Shown here: positions 2,119 to 40,122 of the stretch, piece by piece
How the letters are laid out: every line of letters begins with the position of its first letter
Position numbering within the stretch: the first letter of the stretch is position 1
NCBI GenBank assembly: GCA_003576845.1
Contig: QEVJ01000037.1
Coordinates: forward strand, 1 to 43,202
From: Planctomycetota bacterium
GTDB taxonomy: Bacteria > Planctomycetota > Planctomycetia > Pirellulales > PLA5
DNA: 43,202 nt
Direction of reading: 5' to 3'
Program-made: the position numbers and the translations under genes
Notes under the pieces: model-generated
Seen by the model: the letters and a program-made list of their open reading frames with translations, nothing else
Databases searched by the model: none
What the model was told of the DNA's origin: nothing

Positions 2119-5031
2119 ATGCTTTGGGAAGTCGACATCTACGCCGCCGAAGGACAGCCCGACTTGGCCGCAGCGCGGATTCGGTCGGATGCGGCCGATT
2201 TGGGATTGGCGGCGAACCTGGCCGTGCGATCGGCGAACGGGTTTCTCGTCGAAGGGCCGCTCGATGCCGCGGCGGCTGTAAGAATCGCGAATGAACTGCT
2301 CGCCGACCGCGTCGTCGAGCGAACGGTCGTTGCCCAGGTCGGCGACGAGCGGCTTTCGACGCCGCCGGGAGCGGAGAAGCGGCTCGTTCAGGTGCTGATG
2401 AAGCCGGGCGTGATGGATCCCGTCGCGCAAAGCGCGCTCGGCGCGATTGCCGACTTCGGAATGCGGCCCGATGCGGTCCGGACGCTGCGAAAATACTGGC
2501 TCGGCGACCTCGCGGACGACAAGCTGCGGCTATTGTGCCAGAAGGTGCTGGCGAACGACGCCATCGAGCAGGTGGTCGTCGGACCGCTGCGGCTCGAACG
2601 TTTGGAGTTTGGTTCGCCGTACAAGTTCGCGCTCGTGACGACGCCGATCCGCGAACTCGACGACGATGGACTCATGCGGCTCAGTCGCCAGGGACAGTTA
2701 TACCTCAAGATCGCCGAGATGCGGACGATTCAGGTTCATTTCCGCGAACTGGGCCGCGAGCCGACCGACGTCGAGCTGGAAACGATCGCCCAAACGTGGA
2801 GCGAGCATTGCAGCCACAAGACGCTCGCCGGCCGCATCGCCTATCGCGACGAGCGGGGCGAGCGACGCTATGGCAACATGCTCAAGGAGACGATCTTCGC
2901 CGCCACGCAAGAGATTCGCCGCCGCTTGGGCGAGGCGGATTGGTGCGTCAGCGTGTTCAAGGACAACGCCGGCGTCCTCCGCTTCGACGAGCGGCACAAC
3001 GTAACCTTCAAGGTCGAAACGCACAATCATCCTTCGGCGATCGAGCCTTACGGCGGCGCGAACACGGGCGTGGGAGGCGTGATTCGCGATACGCTCGGCA
3101 CCGGCTTGGGCGCAAAGCCGATCTGCAACACCGACGTATTCTGCTTCGCCCCACCCGACATGCCGGGCGACGCGCTCCCGCCGGGCACGCTCCATCCGCG
3201 CCGCGTAATGAAGGGCGTCGTTGCCGGCGTCCGCGACTACGGCAACCGGATGGGCATTCCGACCGTCAACGGCGCGATCTACTTCGACCCTCGCTACGTC
3301 GGCAATCCGCTCGTCTATTGCGGCAGCGTCGGGCTGATTCCGCACGACAAATCGTTCAAGAAAACGAATCCCAACGACCTGATCGTCGCGATCGGCGGGC
3401 GCACCGGGCGCGACGGCATCCACGGGGCGACGTTCAGCTCGGCGGAATTGACCAGCGAAAGCGAAACGGTTTCCGGCGGCGCGGTGCAGATCGGCAACGC
3501 GATCACGGAAAAGATGGTGCTCGACGTGCTGCTGGCGGCCCGCGATCGCGGATTGTTCACGGCCGTGACCGATTGCGGGGCCGGCGGGTTCTCGAGCGCC
3601 GTCGGCGAAATGGGCGCAGAGATCGGCGCGGAAGTCTGGCTCGATCGCGCGCCGGTGAAATACGCCGGGCTTTCCTACACGGAAATCTGGATTTCCGAAG
3701 CGCAAGAGCGAATGGTCGTTTCCGTCGCCGAAGAAAAATGGCCGCAGCTCGATGCGCTCTGCAAGAGCGAAGGCGTCGAGGCCACCGTCATCGGCCGCTT
3801 CGTGCCGACGGGTCGGCTCGTGCTGAAATACGGCGAGCACCGGGTGGCGGACCTGTCGATGGATTTCTTGCACGACGGCCGGCCTCCGGTCGTGCGGGAA
3901 GCAGTGTACGTTCCGCCGCCGGTCGTGCCGCTGTCCATCGCTCCGCGGACCGATTACACGGACGCACTCTTGAAGGTTCTCGGATCGCTCAACGTCGCGA
4001 GCAAGGAATGGGTGATTCGGCAGTACGACCACGAAGTGCAGGGCGGCAGCGTCGTCAAACCGCTCGTTGGTCTGGCGAACGATGGACCGAGCGATGCGGC
4101 GGTGCTGCGGCCGGTGCTATCGTCGCGGCGGGGCGTTGCCGTTTCGTGCGGCATGAACCCGCGGTTCGGCGATTTCGACACGTATCCCATGGCGGCGAGC
4201 GCCATCGACGAGGCGGTTCGGAATTGCGTCGCGGTAGGAGCAGACCCGGCGCGAATCGCGATTCTCGACAACTTCTGCTGGGGCGATTGCGACCGGCCCG
4301 AGACGCTCGGCTCGCTCGTCCGCGCGGCGATTGCTTGCCAAGACGTGGCCCTGGCGCTCGGCACGCCCTTCATCAGCGGCAAGGACAGCTTGAACAACGA
4401 GTTCAGCTACGTCGACGCGCGCGGCGTGAAGCAGACGATCGCCATCCCGCCGTCGCTGCTCATTAGCGCGATCGGTCTGGTCGACGACGTCGAGCGCTGC
4501 ACCACGATGGATTTCAAGCGGCCTGGAAGCGCGGTCTATCTGGTTGGTCTGACGCGCGACGAGCTCGGCGGTTCGCATTTCGCGCTGGTCGAAGGCGCCC
4601 GCGGTGGCGTTGGCCCGACCGTCGACGCCCGCCAAGCGAAAGCAACGTTTACCGCAATGCACGAAGCGATTCGCGCGGGCCTAGTGCTGGCGTGTCACGA
4701 CTTGAGCGAAGGTGGGCTGGCTGCCGCGCTTGCCGAGATGGCGTTTGCGGGCGGCGTGGGCGCCGCGATCGAACTCGATGCGGTTCCGCACGATGCGGAA
4801 ACGCGATCCGCGGCCATGCTGCTGTTCAGCGAGTCGAACACGCGGTTTGCGGTCGAAGTGTCCGAAGAGAACGCCGCCGCGTTCGAAGCGGCGCTCAAAG
4901 ACACGCCGCACGCTCGCATCGGTCGCACGACCAGCGACGCTCGGCTAACGATCGATTACGCTGGCGGCACGGTGGTCGACGGCAACCTCAAGCAATTGAA
5001 AGAGGCGTGGCAAAGCCCGCTCCGCTGGTAA
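2119..5031 (+). CDS. purL: phosphoribosylformylglycinamidine synthase, PurS-PurL fusion
   Basis: A 970-residue FGAM synthase synthetase subunit, using ATP and glutamine-derived ammonia to convert FGAR to FGAM in purine synthesis. The first ~165 residues are not typical of a stand-alone small PurL. Residues ~90-165 match PurS (LMKPGVMDP at 93-101 is a PurS signature) and residues ~1-80 resemble a second, more diverged PurS unit. The PurL catalytic part follows, with WSEHCSHKT near 227 and [14 protein letters not shown] from 300, then GTGLG, FISGKDS and a second AIRS-like half. Length lies between small PurL (~740) and the large PurLQ form (~1290). The glutaminase is the separate next gene, purQ. 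ATG 2119 is chosen because the protein aligns from its first strand. There is no Shine-Dalgarno sequence, and a repeat arm abuts the start. Confidence 0.95.
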
Positions 5032-5039
5032 GCACAATT

Positions 5040-5090
5040 CGTCGCGAAGCGACGTTCCCCGACTCCCGAATCCCGAATCCCGACCCCTGC
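5040..5090 (+). repeat. hairpin plus word-repeat arm between purL and purQ
   Basis: The purL-purQ spacer begins with a perfect hairpin, CGTCGC-GAA-GCGACG (5040-5054). It continues with degenerate words (CCCGAATCCCGAATCCCG, 5064-5081) ending a few bases before the purQ ATG. No Shine-Dalgarno sequence is present. Only the right-hand arm of the two-armed element is seen here. Confidence 0.6.
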
Positions 5091-5918: not shown

Positions 5919-6065
5919 TAACCACAGAGGACACGGAGGACACAGAGGAAGAAATGAAGAATACAAAATGAAGATCCGTTTGAAGTGCAGGGACGATCGC
6001 GGAATCGAAGCGCCGTCATTTTTCATTCTTCATTTTGCCTTTTGCATTTCCTCCGTGTGTTTAAG
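5919..6065. repeat. two-layer inverted word-repeat element, purQ-gspM spacer
   Basis: The spacer between the convergent purQ and gspM is one nested element. The outer left arm (5919-5949) is of TTAACCACAGAGGACACGG type and the outer right arm is CCTCCGTGTGTTTAA (6051-6065). Inner arms are AAATGAAGAATAC-type (5952-5974) and TTTTCATTCTTCATTTTGCC-type (6020-6050). The core between (about 5975-6017) is GC-rich and contains GACGATCGCGGAATCG. Both outer ends are TTAA. Confidence 0.75.
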
Positions 6066-9121: not shown

Positions 9122-9140
9122 TACGTCAACGTGGGGAAAG

Positions 9141-9254
9141 GCAAAATGCAAAATGAAGAACGTAAAATGGCAAGCCCGTCGATTGCGACTCAGGCCGCTC
9201 GCCGTTTTATTCTGCATTCTTCATTTTGCATTCTTCATTTTGCATTTTGAATTT
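9141..9254. repeat. inverted word-repeat element, gspK-gspL spacer
   Basis: The left arm is GCAAAATGCAAAATGAAGAA (9141-9160) plus CGTAAAATGG. The core is GC-rich (9171-9204) and contains CGATTGCGACTCAGGCCG. The right arm has three copies of a TTCTTCATTTTGCAT-type word (9205-9250). The arms can pair to form a long hairpin with a ~34-nt loop. The whole spacer is this element. In the gspL direction the frame is open through it. Confidence 0.8.
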
Positions 9255-9257
9255 CGA

Positions 9258-10868: not shown

Positions 10869-12034
10869 GGCGCGGCCTCCGCGCTGGCGGCGCCGCCCGT
10901 TTCGGCGGTCGAGCCGGTCGAACTGCCGCCCGACGAGGACGCCGCGCCCTCGGCGGCGGGCAGATAGACGACTTGTGTGTATTCGGTCGACTCGCCCTCG
11001 TCGGACGCCGAGCCGCCAAGCGCTCCGACCGTGCGATCGAAGATGCTCTCGATCTTAGGCGCGGCGATCGCAATCGTGATCCGCACGGCGACGGGCGGAG
11101 CGCCCTTCTCGACCATGTCCCAAGTGTCGCTCCACGTGCTGCCGTCGAAGTACTCGAACGCGATGTCGGTCACTTCCGGCGCGAGGACGGCGGCGCTGTC
11201 GTCGAGAGCGGCCGTGCTGCCCGCGTTGAATGCGTATTGCGTGACCGCGCGGTCGACCGCACGGCGGACGAGACCGCCCTGCGCGTCGCTCGACAACGGA
11301 CCGCCGGGCGACGTGCCGCCGCTCGCGTCGTCTGTGACGTAGTAGGCGACCGTCTTGACGTCGCTGGGAATGTCGGCGATCGCGCCCTCGCCGTTTTGCA
11401 TCATCGCGTCGTATTCGTCGACGCGGGGCAGGCGGCTGATGTCGACGTTGATCTCGTAGGCGGAACCGTACACGCCGGGCGGGTCTTCCGTCGGACCTGC
11501 GGCTTCGTCGAGCACGGAGCCGGTGTCGGTCGAACCGCCCGAGGCGCCGCCCGTGTTGCTTCCGCCGCTAGTGTTGTTCGCGCCGCCCGATGGTTGATTA
11601 CCGGACGAGGACTGGTTGCCGCCGGATTGCTGGCCGGTCGGTGGTTGACCGCCGGGAACATTGCCGCCGGGCGTGGCGCCGCCGGGAGTGTTTCCGCCTT
11701 GTCCATTTTGGCCGCCGCCCATGCCGTTCGTGTCACCGCCCATGCTGCCGGCGTCTTCCGTGCCGCCGCCGATGTCGGCGTCGAGGTTGAGATTGGCGAT
11801 GCTCGAAAAATCAAGCGGGGCATACAAGATCGCGTTCCGCAGGTCGTCGCCGATCATCCGAAACACGCTGCGGGCGAGCTGGGCCTGCTCGATCTTCGCC
11901 CGGCTGCGCTCCGAAATCGTGATGTGCGCGTCGATGGCGATGCCGATGAGCAGCAGGACGAACGTAGCGAGCGTGAGCGAGAGGATGACTTCGAGGAGCG
12001 TGAAACCCGTGGGCGCTCGGTGGCGGTTTCTCAC
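10865..12034 (-). CDS. gspJ: GspJ-like minor pseudopilin with Gly/Asn/Ser-rich insert
   Basis: A prepilin-like protein of about 389 residues. The leader is RNRHRAPTG with cleavage before FTLLEVILSLTLA (Glu at +5). The fold then follows GspJ (RSVFRMIGDDLRNAI; VRITIAIAAPK). Residues ~88-172 are an unusual low-complexity insert rich in Gly, Asn, Ser and Thr (for example GGNTPGGATPGGNVPGG). The start is uncertain. The open frame runs 149 codons further upstream, through a repeat element and over gspI, but those residues are repeat translation. GTG 12034 gives a normal short prepilin leader and lies inside a repeat arm (TTTGCGGTGAG). An ATG 37 codons upstream is the alternative. It ends in an ATGA overlap with gspK. 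Confidence 0.78.
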   Translation of the reverse strand: MRNRHRAPTGFTLLEVILSLTLATFVLLLIGIAIDAHITISERSRAKIEQAQLARSVFRMIGDDLRNAILYAPLDFSSIANLNLDADIGGGTEDAGSMGGDTNGMGGGQNGQGGNTPGGATPGGNVPGGQPPTGQQSGGNQSSSGNQPSGGANNTSGGSNTGGASGGSTDTGSVLDEAAGPTEDPPGVYGSAYEINVDISRLPRVDEYDAMMQNGEGAIADIPSDVKTVAYYVTDDASGGTSPGGPLSSDAQGGLVRRAVDRAVTQYAFNAGSTAALDDSAAVLAPEVTDIAFEYFDGSTWSDTWDMVEKGAPPVAVRITIAIAAPKIESIFDRTVGALGGSASDEGESTEYTQVVYLPAAEGAASSSGGSSTGSTAETGGAASAEAAP

Positions 12035-12200
12035 CGCAAAGGCGCAAGGACGCGAAGGGAATGCAGAATGAAAAATGAAAAATGAAGAATGGGACGATGG
12101 CGATTCAGTCCGTTGCTCGTTCCATTTTTCATTCTTCATTCTGCATTTTGCATTTCCCCGCGTTCCTCCGTGCTCTGCCCCTGTGCCCTCTGTGTTTAAA
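12032..12200. repeat. nested inverted word-repeat element, gspI-gspJ spacer
   Basis: The outer left arm is CACCGCAAAGGCGCAAGGAC-type (12032-12057). The inner left arm has AATGCAGAATGAAAAATGAA words (12060-12091). The core contains CGATGGCGATTCAGTCCG (12095-12112). The inner right arm is TTCCATTTTTCATTCTTCAT-type (12120-12156), and the outer right arm ends CCTCTGTGTTTAA (12188-12200). The gspJ GTG start falls in the outer left arm. The remaining spacer up to the gspI stop (12201-12272) shows nothing recognisable. Confidence 0.78.
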
Positions 12201-12272
12201 GATCGACCGGGCCAGCGCGATTTGCGGTGGTTGGCGAGCGTTCGCGTTGTCCGGCAGGTGGGTCGCATCGGG

Positions 12273-12719
12273 TTAGTTCGTGGTCGTGCCGCTCGTGGCG
12301 CTGCTGGCGTAATCGGGATCGACCATCCAGCGGACGAGCGCGCAGCGGATCGGTTCGGCCGAGTATTCGGGATTGGTTTCGACGACGACGTGGACTTCGA
12401 GGAGGCCCTCTTGCGCCCCCGTGGGGATATCGATGGAGTAGACAAACGTGTCGTTCTCTTCGTAGGTCGCCGCTGACTCATTCGTCAGACCGCGGTCGCC
12501 GGCGACGATTTCGGCCATGATGCTCTCGCAGATGATCGCGGCCTGCGTCATGTCCTCGGCGCGACGGGCGTTCGTCATGCCGAACTGGACCAACTGGCCG
12601 AGCACGGCCATCGAAGCCGCGAGAATGGCGAGGGCGAGGATGACTTCGAGGAGCGAGAAGGCGGGGCGCGAGAGGTTAGAGGTTGGAGGTTGGAGGTTGG
12701 GAAAACGGTAGCGGGTCAT
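12273..12719 (-). CDS. gspI: GspI-like minor pseudopilin
   Basis: A 148-residue pseudopilin. After a 20-residue leader comes FSLLEVILALAILAASMAVLG, a type IV prepilin helix with Glu at +5. The body has the GspI pattern (ICESIMAEI, then a small beta domain with EGLLEVHVVVE). The residue before the cleavage point is Ala (SRPA/FSLLE), not the usual Gly. The leader itself (RFPNLQPPTSNL) is translated from a run of CCAACCTC words like those in planctomycete intergenic repeats, so a repeat has become part of the leader peptide. The start overlaps the gspH stop as ATGA. The low-confidence point is the exact I versus H/J assignment; order and length favour GspI. Confidence 0.8.
   Translation of the reverse strand: MTRYRFPNLQPPTSNLSRPAFSLLEVILALAILAASMAVLGQLVQFGMTNARRAEDMTQAAIICESIMAEIVAGDRGLTNESAATYEENDTFVYSIDIPTGAQEGLLEVHVVVETNPEYSAEPIRCALVRWMVDPDYASSATSGTTTN
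12673..12701 (-). repeat. AACCTCC word repeat inside gspI leader
   Basis: On the minus strand, four degenerate tandem copies of CCAACCTC/TCTAACCTC lie just after the gspI start codon and encode PNLQPPTSNL. This is the pyrimidine-rich word class seen in other spacers of this window, but located within coding sequence. Confidence 0.7.
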
Positions 12720-13852: not shown

Positions 13853-13962
13853 AGGGGTCAGGTTTCAGGGGCCAGGATTCGGGATTCGGGATTTGGGGCG
13901 CGAGCGGCTGCGCCAATCGCGGGCGGACAATCTCTGAATGCTGAATCCCGAATCCCGACCCC
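13853..13962. repeat. inverted word-repeat element, gspF-gspG spacer
   Basis: The left arm has GGATTCGGGATTCGGGATTT words (13874-13897) preceded by CAGGGGTCAGGTTTCAGGGG. The GC-rich core (13898-13930) includes GAGCGGCTGCGCCAATCGCG. The right arm is CTGAATCCCGAATCCCGACC-type (13941-13962). Read on the minus strand, the core resembles that of the element at 9141-9254 (CGATTG...CAGCCGCTCGCG). Confidence 0.78.
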
Positions 13963-15172: not shown

Positions 15173-15245
15173 TCAGGGGTCGGGGGTCGGGGGTTGGGGA
15201 ATAGAGGGTTTTGAATTTCCCTGCCCCCTGACACCCGACCCCTGA
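15173..15245. repeat. inverted word-repeat element, gspE-gspF spacer
   Basis: The left arm has TCAGGGGTCGGGGGTCGGGG words (15173-15199). The loop is short and AT-richer (15200-15221). The right arm is CCCCTGACACCCGACCCCTG-type (15223-15244). It forms a strong hairpin occupying nearly the whole spacer and ends three bases before the gspF ATG. Confidence 0.78.
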
Positions 15246-23923: not shown

Positions 23924-25426
23924 CTATCGCTTCACGCCCTCGCGGCGCTGTTTTTCCTGGTACTTCTCGTACAGCCGCTTGTGCCGGTTGGACAAGTCGA
24001 CCTGGCGGCCTTGGACGAAGGCTTGTTCGACGTGGGTGGCGACTTCGAGGATGTCGCCGTCGGCGATGAAGAGCGTGGCGTCTTTGCCGGCTTCGAGCGA
24101 GCCGGCGCGGTCGCCGATGCCGAGAATCTGTGCGGCGGAGAGCGTGACCGACTTGAGGGCTTCGTCCGGAGGCAGACCATAGGCGGCGGCTTTGGCGGCT
24201 TCGTAGGGCAGGTTGCGGATGTTCGACGCTTCGAACTTGCCGCCGTCGCAGATGCAGAACTTGACGCCGGCCTGGCGCAGTCGCTCCGGCACGGTAAACG
24301 GCGCGTCGAACGGATCGCTGCGGCGCATCGGCAGGCGATTGACGCTGTTGACGACGACCGGGATGTCGTGCTCTTTGAGCAGCGCGGCCGCGTGCGGGGC
24401 GTCGTAGCCGCCGACGATCACGAGCTTGAGATTCTCCTTGAGCGCGAACGCGACGGCCGCTTGAATCTCGACGATCTCGTCCGCCCGCACAAATACCGGC
24501 AGCTTGCGGTCGAAGACTTGCAAGAGTGCTTCGTAACGCACGTCGAGGGGCGTGTTCGGATTGCCGGCCCGCGCCTTGGCGTAGGCCCGGGCATCGTCGA
24601 ACGTCTTGCGGAGGAGCGTGAGCTGCTCGTTGCGGTTTTCGGGCGGGGGTTGCTGCCCGCCGATGCCGACTTCCCAACTGCGGGCGGCGGACATGCGAGG
24701 CCAGTTGATGTGCATGCCGACGGGCGCGGCGAGCGTCATGTCTTCCCACGTCCAGCCGTCGAGGGCGACGACCGCAGATTGGCCTTGAATAAGCTGCCCG
24801 CGGGGCGTGACTTGCGCCAGCAGCACGCCGTTCGCACGCGTCACCGGGATCAGTTCGCTGTCGGGATTGACGGCGACTTGCGCGCGGACGTTGGGATTGA
24901 TCGGGCCAACTTCGGTGTGGTCGATCGTGGCGCGGATCGAATCGACTTCGACGAGGCCGAGCGTCGAGTTGGCGGCGATGAGCCCGGGAAAGACATGCTT
25001 GCCCTTCGCGTCGATCCGCGTCGCGCCGCCGGGAATGGCCGTGTCCGCTCCGCCGACGGAGGTGAGCTTGCCCGAGTCGAAAACGACGACGCCGTTTTCG
25101 ATCACCGGGCCGCAGGCCGTGTGGACGGTTGCGCCGACGATGGCGATGGGGCCGGACTGGGGCGCGCCGGGAATCTCCGGCCCGGCGCTAGCGACGCTTG
25201 CGATAAGCGCAAATATGGCGAGAACAACGAATCCAGTCGCGAATCTTGGCGTTGAACGTGAGGTTGAGTTGATTCGTTTTTTAACGCAGAGGGCGCAGAG
25301 GTCTCGCAGGGGGCGCAGAGAAGACAGGCGAGTGAATTGCAGAGATGGCCGTTTTGAGTTCACAGTTTGCAGAGTGGAACTCTCCGCGCCCTCTGCGCCC
25401 TCTGCGTTAAAGAAGTACCGATTCAT
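23924..25426 (-). CDS. exported amidohydrolase-family protein, metal site degenerate, repeat-derived N-terminus
   Basis: About 500 residues. The body (from ~90) is an amidohydrolase-type fold: a beta-sandwich start IAIVGATVHTACGPVIENGVVVFD, the GKHVFPGLI strand, and the C-terminal VTLSAAQILGIGDRAGSLEAGKDATLFI. The metal motif expected after PGLI (D-x-H-x-H) is replaced by AANSTLG, so hydrolase activity is doubtful. A signal-like helix is at 63-82 (FVVLAIFALIASVASA). The start is unclear: no ATG, GTG or TTG lies between that helix and the upstream repeat. The nearest starts (ATG 25426, or GTG inside the element) read through the repeat at 25281-25410. This gives residues NAEGAEGAESS and LRPLRDLCALCVKK, plain repeat translation. 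It is convergent with cobA-hemD and downstream of a paralogue. Confidence 0.72.
   Translation of the reverse strand: MNRYFFNAEGAEGAESSTLQTVNSKRPSLQFTRLSSLRPLRDLCALCVKKRINSTSRSTPRFATGFVVLAIFALIASVASAGPEIPGAPQSGPIAIVGATVHTACGPVIENGVVVFDSGKLTSVGGADTAIPGGATRIDAKGKHVFPGLIAANSTLGLVEVDSIRATIDHTEVGPINPNVRAQVAVNPDSELIPVTRANGVLLAQVTPRGQLIQGQSAVVALDGWTWEDMTLAAPVGMHINWPRMSAARSWEVGIGGQQPPPENRNEQLTLLRKTFDDARAYAKARAGNPNTPLDVRYEALLQVFDRKLPVFVRADEIVEIQAAVAFALKENLKLVIVGGYDAPHAAALLKEHDIPVVVNSVNRLPMRRSDPFDAPFTVPERLRQAGVKFCICDGGKFEASNIRNLPYEAAKAAAYGLPPDEALKSVTLSAAQILGIGDRAGSLEAGKDATLFIADGDILEVATHVEQAFVQGRQVDLSNRHKRLYEKYQEKQRREGVKR
25281..25410. repeat. 130-base element with perfect 21-bp inverted ends
   Basis: The element begins TTAACGCAGAGGGCGCAGAG (25281-25300, plus G) and ends with the exact complement (25390-25410), giving perfect 21-bp terminal inverted repeats that start and end in TTAA. 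Further imperfect GCAGAG words follow each end inward. The ~60-base centre (25321-25380) is less ordered. It lies inside the N-terminal open frame of the amidohydrolase-family gene. Confidence 0.85.
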
Positions 25427-35508: not shown

Positions 35509-35597
35509 GCAAAAAGGCAAAATGAAGAATGAAGAATGAAGGCCGTGGCGATGACCGCTTCGGCATTTTGCATTCTTCATTCTGCCTTTTGCATTCC
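35509..35597. repeat. inverted word-repeat element, frr to zinc-ribbon gene spacer
   Basis: The left arm is AAAAAGGCAAAATGAAGAAT (35511-35530) plus GAAGAATGAA. The core is short and GC-rich, containing CCGTGGCGATGACCGCTTCG (35543-35562). The right arm is CATTTTGCATTCTTCATTCT (35564-35583) plus GCCTTTTGCATTCC. It can fold into a hairpin with a ~23-nt loop. Confidence 0.8.
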
Positions 35598-39960: not shown

Positions 39961-40122
39961 GGGCGGGATTCGGAATTCGGGATTCAGAATTCAGGGGTGA
40001 CGAACGATGAACTCATCGAAAGCGATCGGCAGACTCAATTCATCGCTTCTCGCTCATCAATCCCGCTCATCACTTGCCTTCCTCCGTGTCCTCTGTGCCG
40101 CCTCCGTGTTCTCTGTGTTTAA
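39961..40122. repeat. composite word-repeat element, fabH upstream spacer
   Basis: Three word types are joined here. GGGATTCGGAATTCGGGATT-type words are at 39964-39997, next to the fabH start. GATGAACTCATCG and its complement-like TCATCGCTTCTCGCTCATC surround a small core with GCGATCGGCAGACTC (about 40001-40075). CCTCCGTGTCCTCTGTG-type words are at 40081-40122, ending GTGTTTAAG. It fills the whole space between fabH and the oxidoreductase gene. Confidence 0.7.

Follow-up and report, generated by a model that had tools for sequence, protein, structure and literature searches.

IVSs that carry an S23p ORF are known from 23S rRNA genes, as are short IVSs without an ORF. In Coxiella burnetii, heptamers precede the S23p ORF and RNase III excises the IVS from the 23S rRNA (PMC4990558). 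Heptanucleotide repeats are the commonest of the longer microsatellites in many bacteria and have been ascribed to polymerase slippage (PMC4679880, PMC4692102). Heptameric G-rich repeats have been described from Xanthomonas and Nostoc, with 70-75 convergent inverted pairs in Xanthomonas (Rehm 2015, PMC4692102), and the TAACTGA heptamers of the Beggiatoaceae are repeated directly, hardly ever in inverted form, ahead of start codons, and a regulatory role has been proposed for them (PMC4679880). Avd, the cofactor of diversity-generating retroelements (DGRs), belongs to the same fold family as S23p (PMC10053308). The S23p crystal structure 2GSC (Xcc0516) originates from Xanthomonas. The 23S IVSs with S23p, the heptamer repeats and the inverted heptamer pairs were thus previously known, each separately. 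The open-access literature yielded no account of dispersed intergenic S23p elements with heptamer arms, of their GxxExxY-nonamer counterpart or of a period and word that depend on the lineage of the protein; an earlier description in subscription journals is possible.

The window analysed here is an entire contig (C247, 43,202 nt) of a planctomycete genome of 7.05 Mb in 289 contigs. Its elements follow one plan, a G-rich arm, a core and a C-rich arm, in which the arms are heptamer arrays facing each other (coordinates are given without strand). In the element from which the analysis started, inverted-arm and word analysis places a purine-rich left arm of AATGMAR words at 9136-9169 and a pyrimidine-rich right arm at 9209-9255, around a core of unique sequence (9170-9208) whose likeness to other cores is at chance level. 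Further AATGMAR elements lie at 5953-6048 (arms 5953-5973 and 6014-6048), 12060-12154 and 35512-35595; the words used in this family (elements at 5953, 9138, 12060 and 35514) are AATGAAG, AATGCAA, AATGAAA and AATGCAG. A GGGATTC element occupies 13868-13962, and two elements had been overlooked: a GGGGTCG element at 15173-15245 and a gene-less nonamer element, CGCAGAGGG, at 25277-25414, whose arms resemble those of the GxxExxY elements L171 and L172. Single heptamer arrays are found at 104-156 (C-rich, CCCGAAA words), 5058-5083 (CCCGAAT) and 12671-12700 (GAGGTTG).

The first-pass annotation had described inverted arms of degenerate short words at five places and probably a sixth. The five were borne out by inverted-arm calls at 5947-6054, 9136-9255, 12059-12154, 13868-13962 and 35512-35595, and paired elements of the window fold at z -4.1 to -7.9 relative to dinucleotide shuffles, on both strands wherever both were folded. 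The sixth, at 39961-40122, falls away: its fold scores z +0.2, and it consists of a single unpaired GGGATTC array (39964-39994) followed by other words. The arms are real and their words are heptamers, and outer arms of longer words had escaped notice around 5919-6065 and 12033-12200. The element at 5953 sits inside nonamer words of GxxExxY type, with an outer left arm, CACAGAGGA, at 5919-5949 and its partner, CCTCCGTGTG, near 6050-6065, and the element at 12060 has outer 8/9-mer words at about 12033-12059 and 12155-12202. Such layering, with nonamer arms outside, heptamer arms inside and the core in the centre, is seen in the window at 5919-6065 and 12033-12202 and elsewhere in this genome (G000) at C192:128325-128505 and 130947-131101; the inverse nesting, heptamers outside nonamers, was not seen.

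Several of the elements are hosted by a type II secretion system (T2SS) operon on the minus strand, between co-directional genes: the 15173 element fills the spacer between genes E and F, the 13868 element is downstream of F, and the 9136 element lies between K and a PilM-like gene. In a comparison with intrinsic terminators, the paired arms are 25-34 bp long, AT-rich or GC-rich and symmetric, and they stand between co-directional operon genes. A search of the window against Rfam gave no matches, and nothing relevant was found on CACAGAGG words in the open-access literature.

What is constant in this element type is its architecture, the polarity of its arms and the length of its words. The first-pass annotation had seen a single element type with exchangeable arms around a conserved GC-rich core; the type and its exchangeable arms stand, but the conserved core does not. 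For 30 trimmed cores of AATGMAR elements, drawn from a sample of 1.18 Mb (17% of the genome, read in stretches) and compared in 435 pairs, the mean pairwise score was 10.73, against 10.82 +/- 0.26 for random genomic segments of equal length; it exceeds the 10.02 +/- 0.10 of mononucleotide shuffles, which disregard the dinucleotide make-up of the genome. The two cores that had looked related by eye, CGATTGCGACTCAGGCCG and CGATGGCGATTCAGTCCG, are identical at 15/18 positions, and their score of 21 is the highest of all pairs and lies within the range of null sets, which reach about 20-22. In substance, AATGMAR cores in this sample are no more alike than control sequence, the outcome that the annotation itself had named as counting against it. 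That a conserved GC-rich core defines a single family, a reading for which the 15 shared bases of that one pair speak, is therefore scarcely credible beside 30 cores as dissimilar as random genomic segments. The cores had no convincing match elsewhere in the 1.18 Mb or among S23p genes, and the idea that they derive from captured genomic or S23p sequence was rejected.

Compared word by word, the two arms of an AATGMAR element are no better matched than arms taken from different elements, although their word orders had looked matched by eye. Arm-to-arm copying within an element thus leaves no signal, and hairpin-templated copying is unsupported in this family. Likewise, no preference for G.U over A.C mismatches was seen in the arms, and a selected, G.U-tolerant sense-strand RNA stem was discarded for want of any mismatch signal. 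Some single arrays switch word in register midway, from GGGGTCG to GGGATTC (G000 C199:1219-1252, 2275-2335 and 4234-4297). Mixed-family facing pairs, with GGGATTC on the left, CTCGATC on the right and the G-rich-first polarity kept, occur at G000 C179:19859-19941 and C184:17921-17995 and at the congener's site corresponding to window 15173, and no copying model accounts for them.

The arrays are abundant in this genome. In the 1.18-Mb sample, 187 period-7 arrays were counted, third-order shuffles giving 8. Facing pairs of AATGMAR arrays number 33 there, with a purine-rich left and a pyrimidine-rich right arm in 33/33, and the family also includes unpaired arrays (9 R and 7 Y). The 15-mer GCAAAATGAAGAATG is present in 120 copies in this genome, 7 in one congener and 0-1 in 38 order-mates, its reversed control in none. 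Of 392 genomes from the phylum, 17 have three-word AATGMAR arrays, in low numbers outside this genome (at most 27, in G313). With 9.5 arrays per 80 kb, this genome far exceeds ten others, from each of which 80 kb was sampled, in array density. The array abundance in this genome is a lineage-specific expansion. The presence of S23p predicts array density only weakly and was set aside as a predictor, since heptamer arrays numbered 0 in five S23p-less and only 3 in five S23p-bearing genomes (80 kb each); most genomes with S23p show no such expansion of gene-less arrays, so presence of the protein is not sufficient for it. Another expanded heptamer family, the reversed word RAMGTAA three times in tandem, reaches 4-89 copies per genome in other planctomycete lineages (G149, G169, G179 and G208).

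What identifies the element type is the S23p gene that full-length copies carry in their core, and this lies outside the window. In this genome and its congener, genes of the S23p family (PF05635, '23S rRNA intervening sequence protein') are preceded by a G-rich heptamer array and followed by a C-rich one, in a word particular to each locus (GGGATTC, GGGGTCR, GGATYGA, GGCTTGA, CGCGGGG, CAGGAGA, GAGGTTA, TAGGCTG and CAAGTTT), and GxxExxY (PF13366) genes lie between facing 8-9-mer arrays, for example CGCAGAGGA, CACGGAGGA and CACGGATTG. Same-word facing pairs with a core of >150 nt number only four in 1.18 Mb; two of them enclose S23p genes, and the other two (gaps of 687 and 1026 nt) contain no recognisable gene and resemble neighbouring arrays. 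None of the S23p genes found in this genome has AATGMAR arms; such arms do flank S23p in two other planctomycetes, as AATGCAG in G204 (L300) and as AATGCAA in G256 (L305).

The association extends well beyond these genomes. In 80 S23p loci of many phyla, obtained from a scan of genome contigs, a period-7 array (score 9 or more) was present within 200 nt of the gene in 51/80, against 3/80 at 700-900 nt. Period 8 was found at 12 loci and period 9 at one (period 14 being 2x7), so that 63/80 loci have period 7 or 8 nearby, and several of those remaining show short degenerate facing words by eye. The polarity is also general, with G>C in 38 and C>G in 5 of the arrays upstream of S23p and C>G in 37 and G>C in 6 of those downstream. 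Among 35 GxxExxY loci of the Planctomycetota, periods 8, 9 and 10 were found at 11, 17 and 8, against 0, 2 and 0 in controls, and period 7 at 1, against 3.

Word length and word composition are furthermore coupled to the lineage of the protein. Octamer arms are clustered (10 changes vs 13.4 when shuffled, 1/500 shuffles being as low) on a tree of 119 S23p proteins that rests on few columns and leaves many forks unresolved; of the six rows in one clade with 99% support, five are octamer loci, and these come from several phyla. The 18 proteins of a deep second clade are flanked throughout by heptamers and have AT-rich words, with a mean GC of 0.31 vs 0.64 in the main clade (P=4e-7); the hosts of the two clades overlap and are mostly GC-rich. 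The AATGMAR word of the window fits this AT-rich second clade, of which this genome has one member (L189, with CAAGTTT arms). A fixed period combined with free choice of word implies that something measures length, and slippage alone is inadequate where period and composition track protein lineage. The association with S23p, the fixed period with locus-specific words, the polarity and the coupling of word class and period to S23p lineage are thereby demonstrated.

Copies with and without a gene belong to one group. The seven S23p loci of this genome supply two-word 14-mers that recur in 13, 8, 3, 0, 11, 8 and 1 other sampled arrays, although the matching array of L188 is possibly a neighbour's, whereas those of 65 foreign S23p loci recur 0.46 times on average and not at all in 57 cases (own vs foreign, P=5e-7). 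Similarly, gene-less nonamer elements share arms with the GxxExxY elements L171 and L172, mostly at 80-95% identity. An alternative is that the arrays are made by slippage in the host and selected as intergenic hairpins that process, terminate or insulate transcripts, the S23p and GxxExxY genes being passengers that settled in the loops. Strong RNA folds on both strands, the location between operon genes, the 9 R and 7 Y arrays of the AATGMAR family that stand unpaired and the general commonness of heptamers in bacteria (PMC4679880) would all suit such host structures. This alternative is nonetheless considered unlikely, because period and word composition track S23p lineage across hosts, words differ from site to site without relation to gene function, compensatory pairing between the arms is not seen and copy number is extremely different between congeners.

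The congener (G001), with 71-85% identity in genes, allows orthologous sites to be compared. The element at window 15173 is present in both, with a different word in the right arm, and the nested architecture at C192:128.4k and 131.0k is common to both, with diverged words. Elements at C192:116.3k and C52:34.9k are absent in the congener, a different element is carried at C52:33k, and at the orthologue of the window element at 9136-9255 the congener has a nonamer-armed element with a GxxExxY gene as its core. The proposal that arms are exchangeable is borne out at an orthologous S23p element, where the gene is retained (protein 72% identical) and both arms are reworded, GGGATTC in the congener vs GGGGTCR here. 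S23p and GxxExxY orthologues are under purifying selection, with dN/dS of 0.07-0.14, some dS values being near saturation. It is likewise demonstrated that gene-less copies share words with gene-bearing ones of the same genome, that the ORFs evolve under purifying selection, that both arms changed word at one orthologous site and that the elements have been amplified in this lineage. Neither an insertion event nor a clean empty site at base resolution was seen in the genomes compared. In both congeners a tRNA gene cluster harbours, at orthologous positions, S23p elements with words of TAGGCTG type (L186 and L188), and two S23p copies on Calothrix plasmids occupy a shared plasmid region.

Taken together, the window elements probably belong, as gene-less and lineage-amplified representatives, to a class of IVS-like hairpin elements found between genes. 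In this explanation, a full-length heptamer element of about 450-500 bp comprises a G-rich array, a short leader, one small S23p/four-helix-bundle ORF (PF05635) and a complementary C-rich array, and a sister class has 8-10-mer arms around a GxxExxY ORF (PF13366, PD-(D/E)XK fold). The element transcript would fold into a long hairpin cleavable by RNase III, as reported for 23S rRNA IVSs; if this RNA is cut as in the Coxiella IVS, copies inside operons may be tolerated with little harm. Word sharing and the coupling of protein and word suggest that S23p may recognise the word arms and act in trans to spread or maintain gene-less copies, while arms might lengthen, shorten and change word in 7-nt steps. 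A DNA-level route of copying is favoured, because no reverse transcriptase was detected. A retro-element in which S23p works with a reverse transcriptase, like its fold relative Avd, and heptamers arise from repeated copying of a 7-nt template would make sense of the kinship in fold between PF05635 and Avd (PMC10053308) and of tandem words with a telomere-like strand asymmetry. It is highly improbable, as no RVT_1 domain was found in this genome (G000, 99% complete) or the congener (G001), and word variation consists of ordinary transitions on both strands and is not adenine-directed.

Movement of the hairpins by a transposase acting on ssDNA (RAYT/IS200-like), with S23p as an accessory, would predict the lack of target duplication seen here: flanking direct repeats are not in excess (P=0.81), in elements whose ends are fuzzy. 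GTAG-tagged REP-like pairs are also abundant in the same genome, but the heptamer elements lack both a fixed end sequence and any GTAG or CGTC tag, and this route is very unlikely. The GTAG-tagged pairs, which are present at high copy and whose fixed arms (CTGTAGGAGGCGAATCCTTTCGCCGA) enclose a variable core of some 20 nt (G000 C192:7144-7214, C199:58126-58199, C17:8143-8214 and others), are REP/BIME-like and opposite in design to the heptamer elements. Two further dispersed inverted families, GGGTGCCACTGCTGGCTTGTCCAGCAGTG and CAGCCTGTTGAAAAAGGGGACAGACCCT, have fixed arms and partly conserved cores (G000 C148:3692-3768, C14:29083-29172 and C184:26222-26305; C15:41333-41429 and C186:18397-18493). 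Some GTAG-tagged inverted pairs have a heptamer array or element in their loop, as though hairpin loops were preferred sites (G000 C192:152474-152643 and C186:9177-9275).

S23p and GxxExxY proteins are widespread and their function is not known; repeat period and word class track protein lineage across phyla. Beyond the class of IVS-like hairpin elements, it is tentatively proposed that S23p and GxxExxY form the heart of a mobile element of a new kind, one with ends set by word length and strand asymmetry and not by fixed sequence; the protein might set a step of 7-8 nt (S23p) or 8-10 nt (GxxExxY) and, at both ends, build or recognise whatever word is of the right class, seeding bacterial heptanucleotide repeats. 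The puzzle of heptamer repeats is now tied to the S23p family, and a single protein and a single hairpin, of DNA or RNA, would allow both questions to be tested.

Among described systems, the long form of the 23S IVS shares inverted arms as a stem and an S23p ORF in the loop of long copies, the window copies being ORF-less. Unlike the 23S IVS, the elements here are intergenic in protein operons, occur in many copies and have locus-specific words on both arms; they lie between protein genes and not in a helix of the 23S rRNA gene. The four-helix-bundle protein family is shared with DGRs (PMC10053308), whereas no reverse transcriptase was detected here, and template and variable repeats and adenine mutagenesis are absent; DGR-type mutagenesis was rejected, since A>G and G>A rates are alike and transitions dominate. 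The first-pass annotation doubted that these were standard REPs or MITEs, and rightly so. Intergenic palindromic pairs are shared with GTAG/CGTC-tagged REPs and BIMEs, which have a fixed sequence of 20-40 nt and a tetranucleotide tag (PMC3733652); the heptamer elements have neither, being variable arrays of words without a fixed palindrome. A MITE is opposed by the unrelated heptamer cores and by the unremarkable flanking repeats of these fuzzy-ended elements, although nonamer elements do share arms. The TAACTGA repeats of the Beggiatoaceae (PMC4679880) are similarly intergenic heptamer arrays, unlike the inverted pairs found here. Also close in form are the Xanthomonas and Nostoc heptamers (PMC4692102), together with cyanobacterial STRRs, which are likewise tandem 7-nt words, intergenic and G-rich on one strand. 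The link to S23p is absent from the Xanthomonas and Nostoc work (PMC4692102), and what sets the present elements apart from those heptamers is the combination of many word families in one genome, gene-bearing forms and a period linked to a protein.
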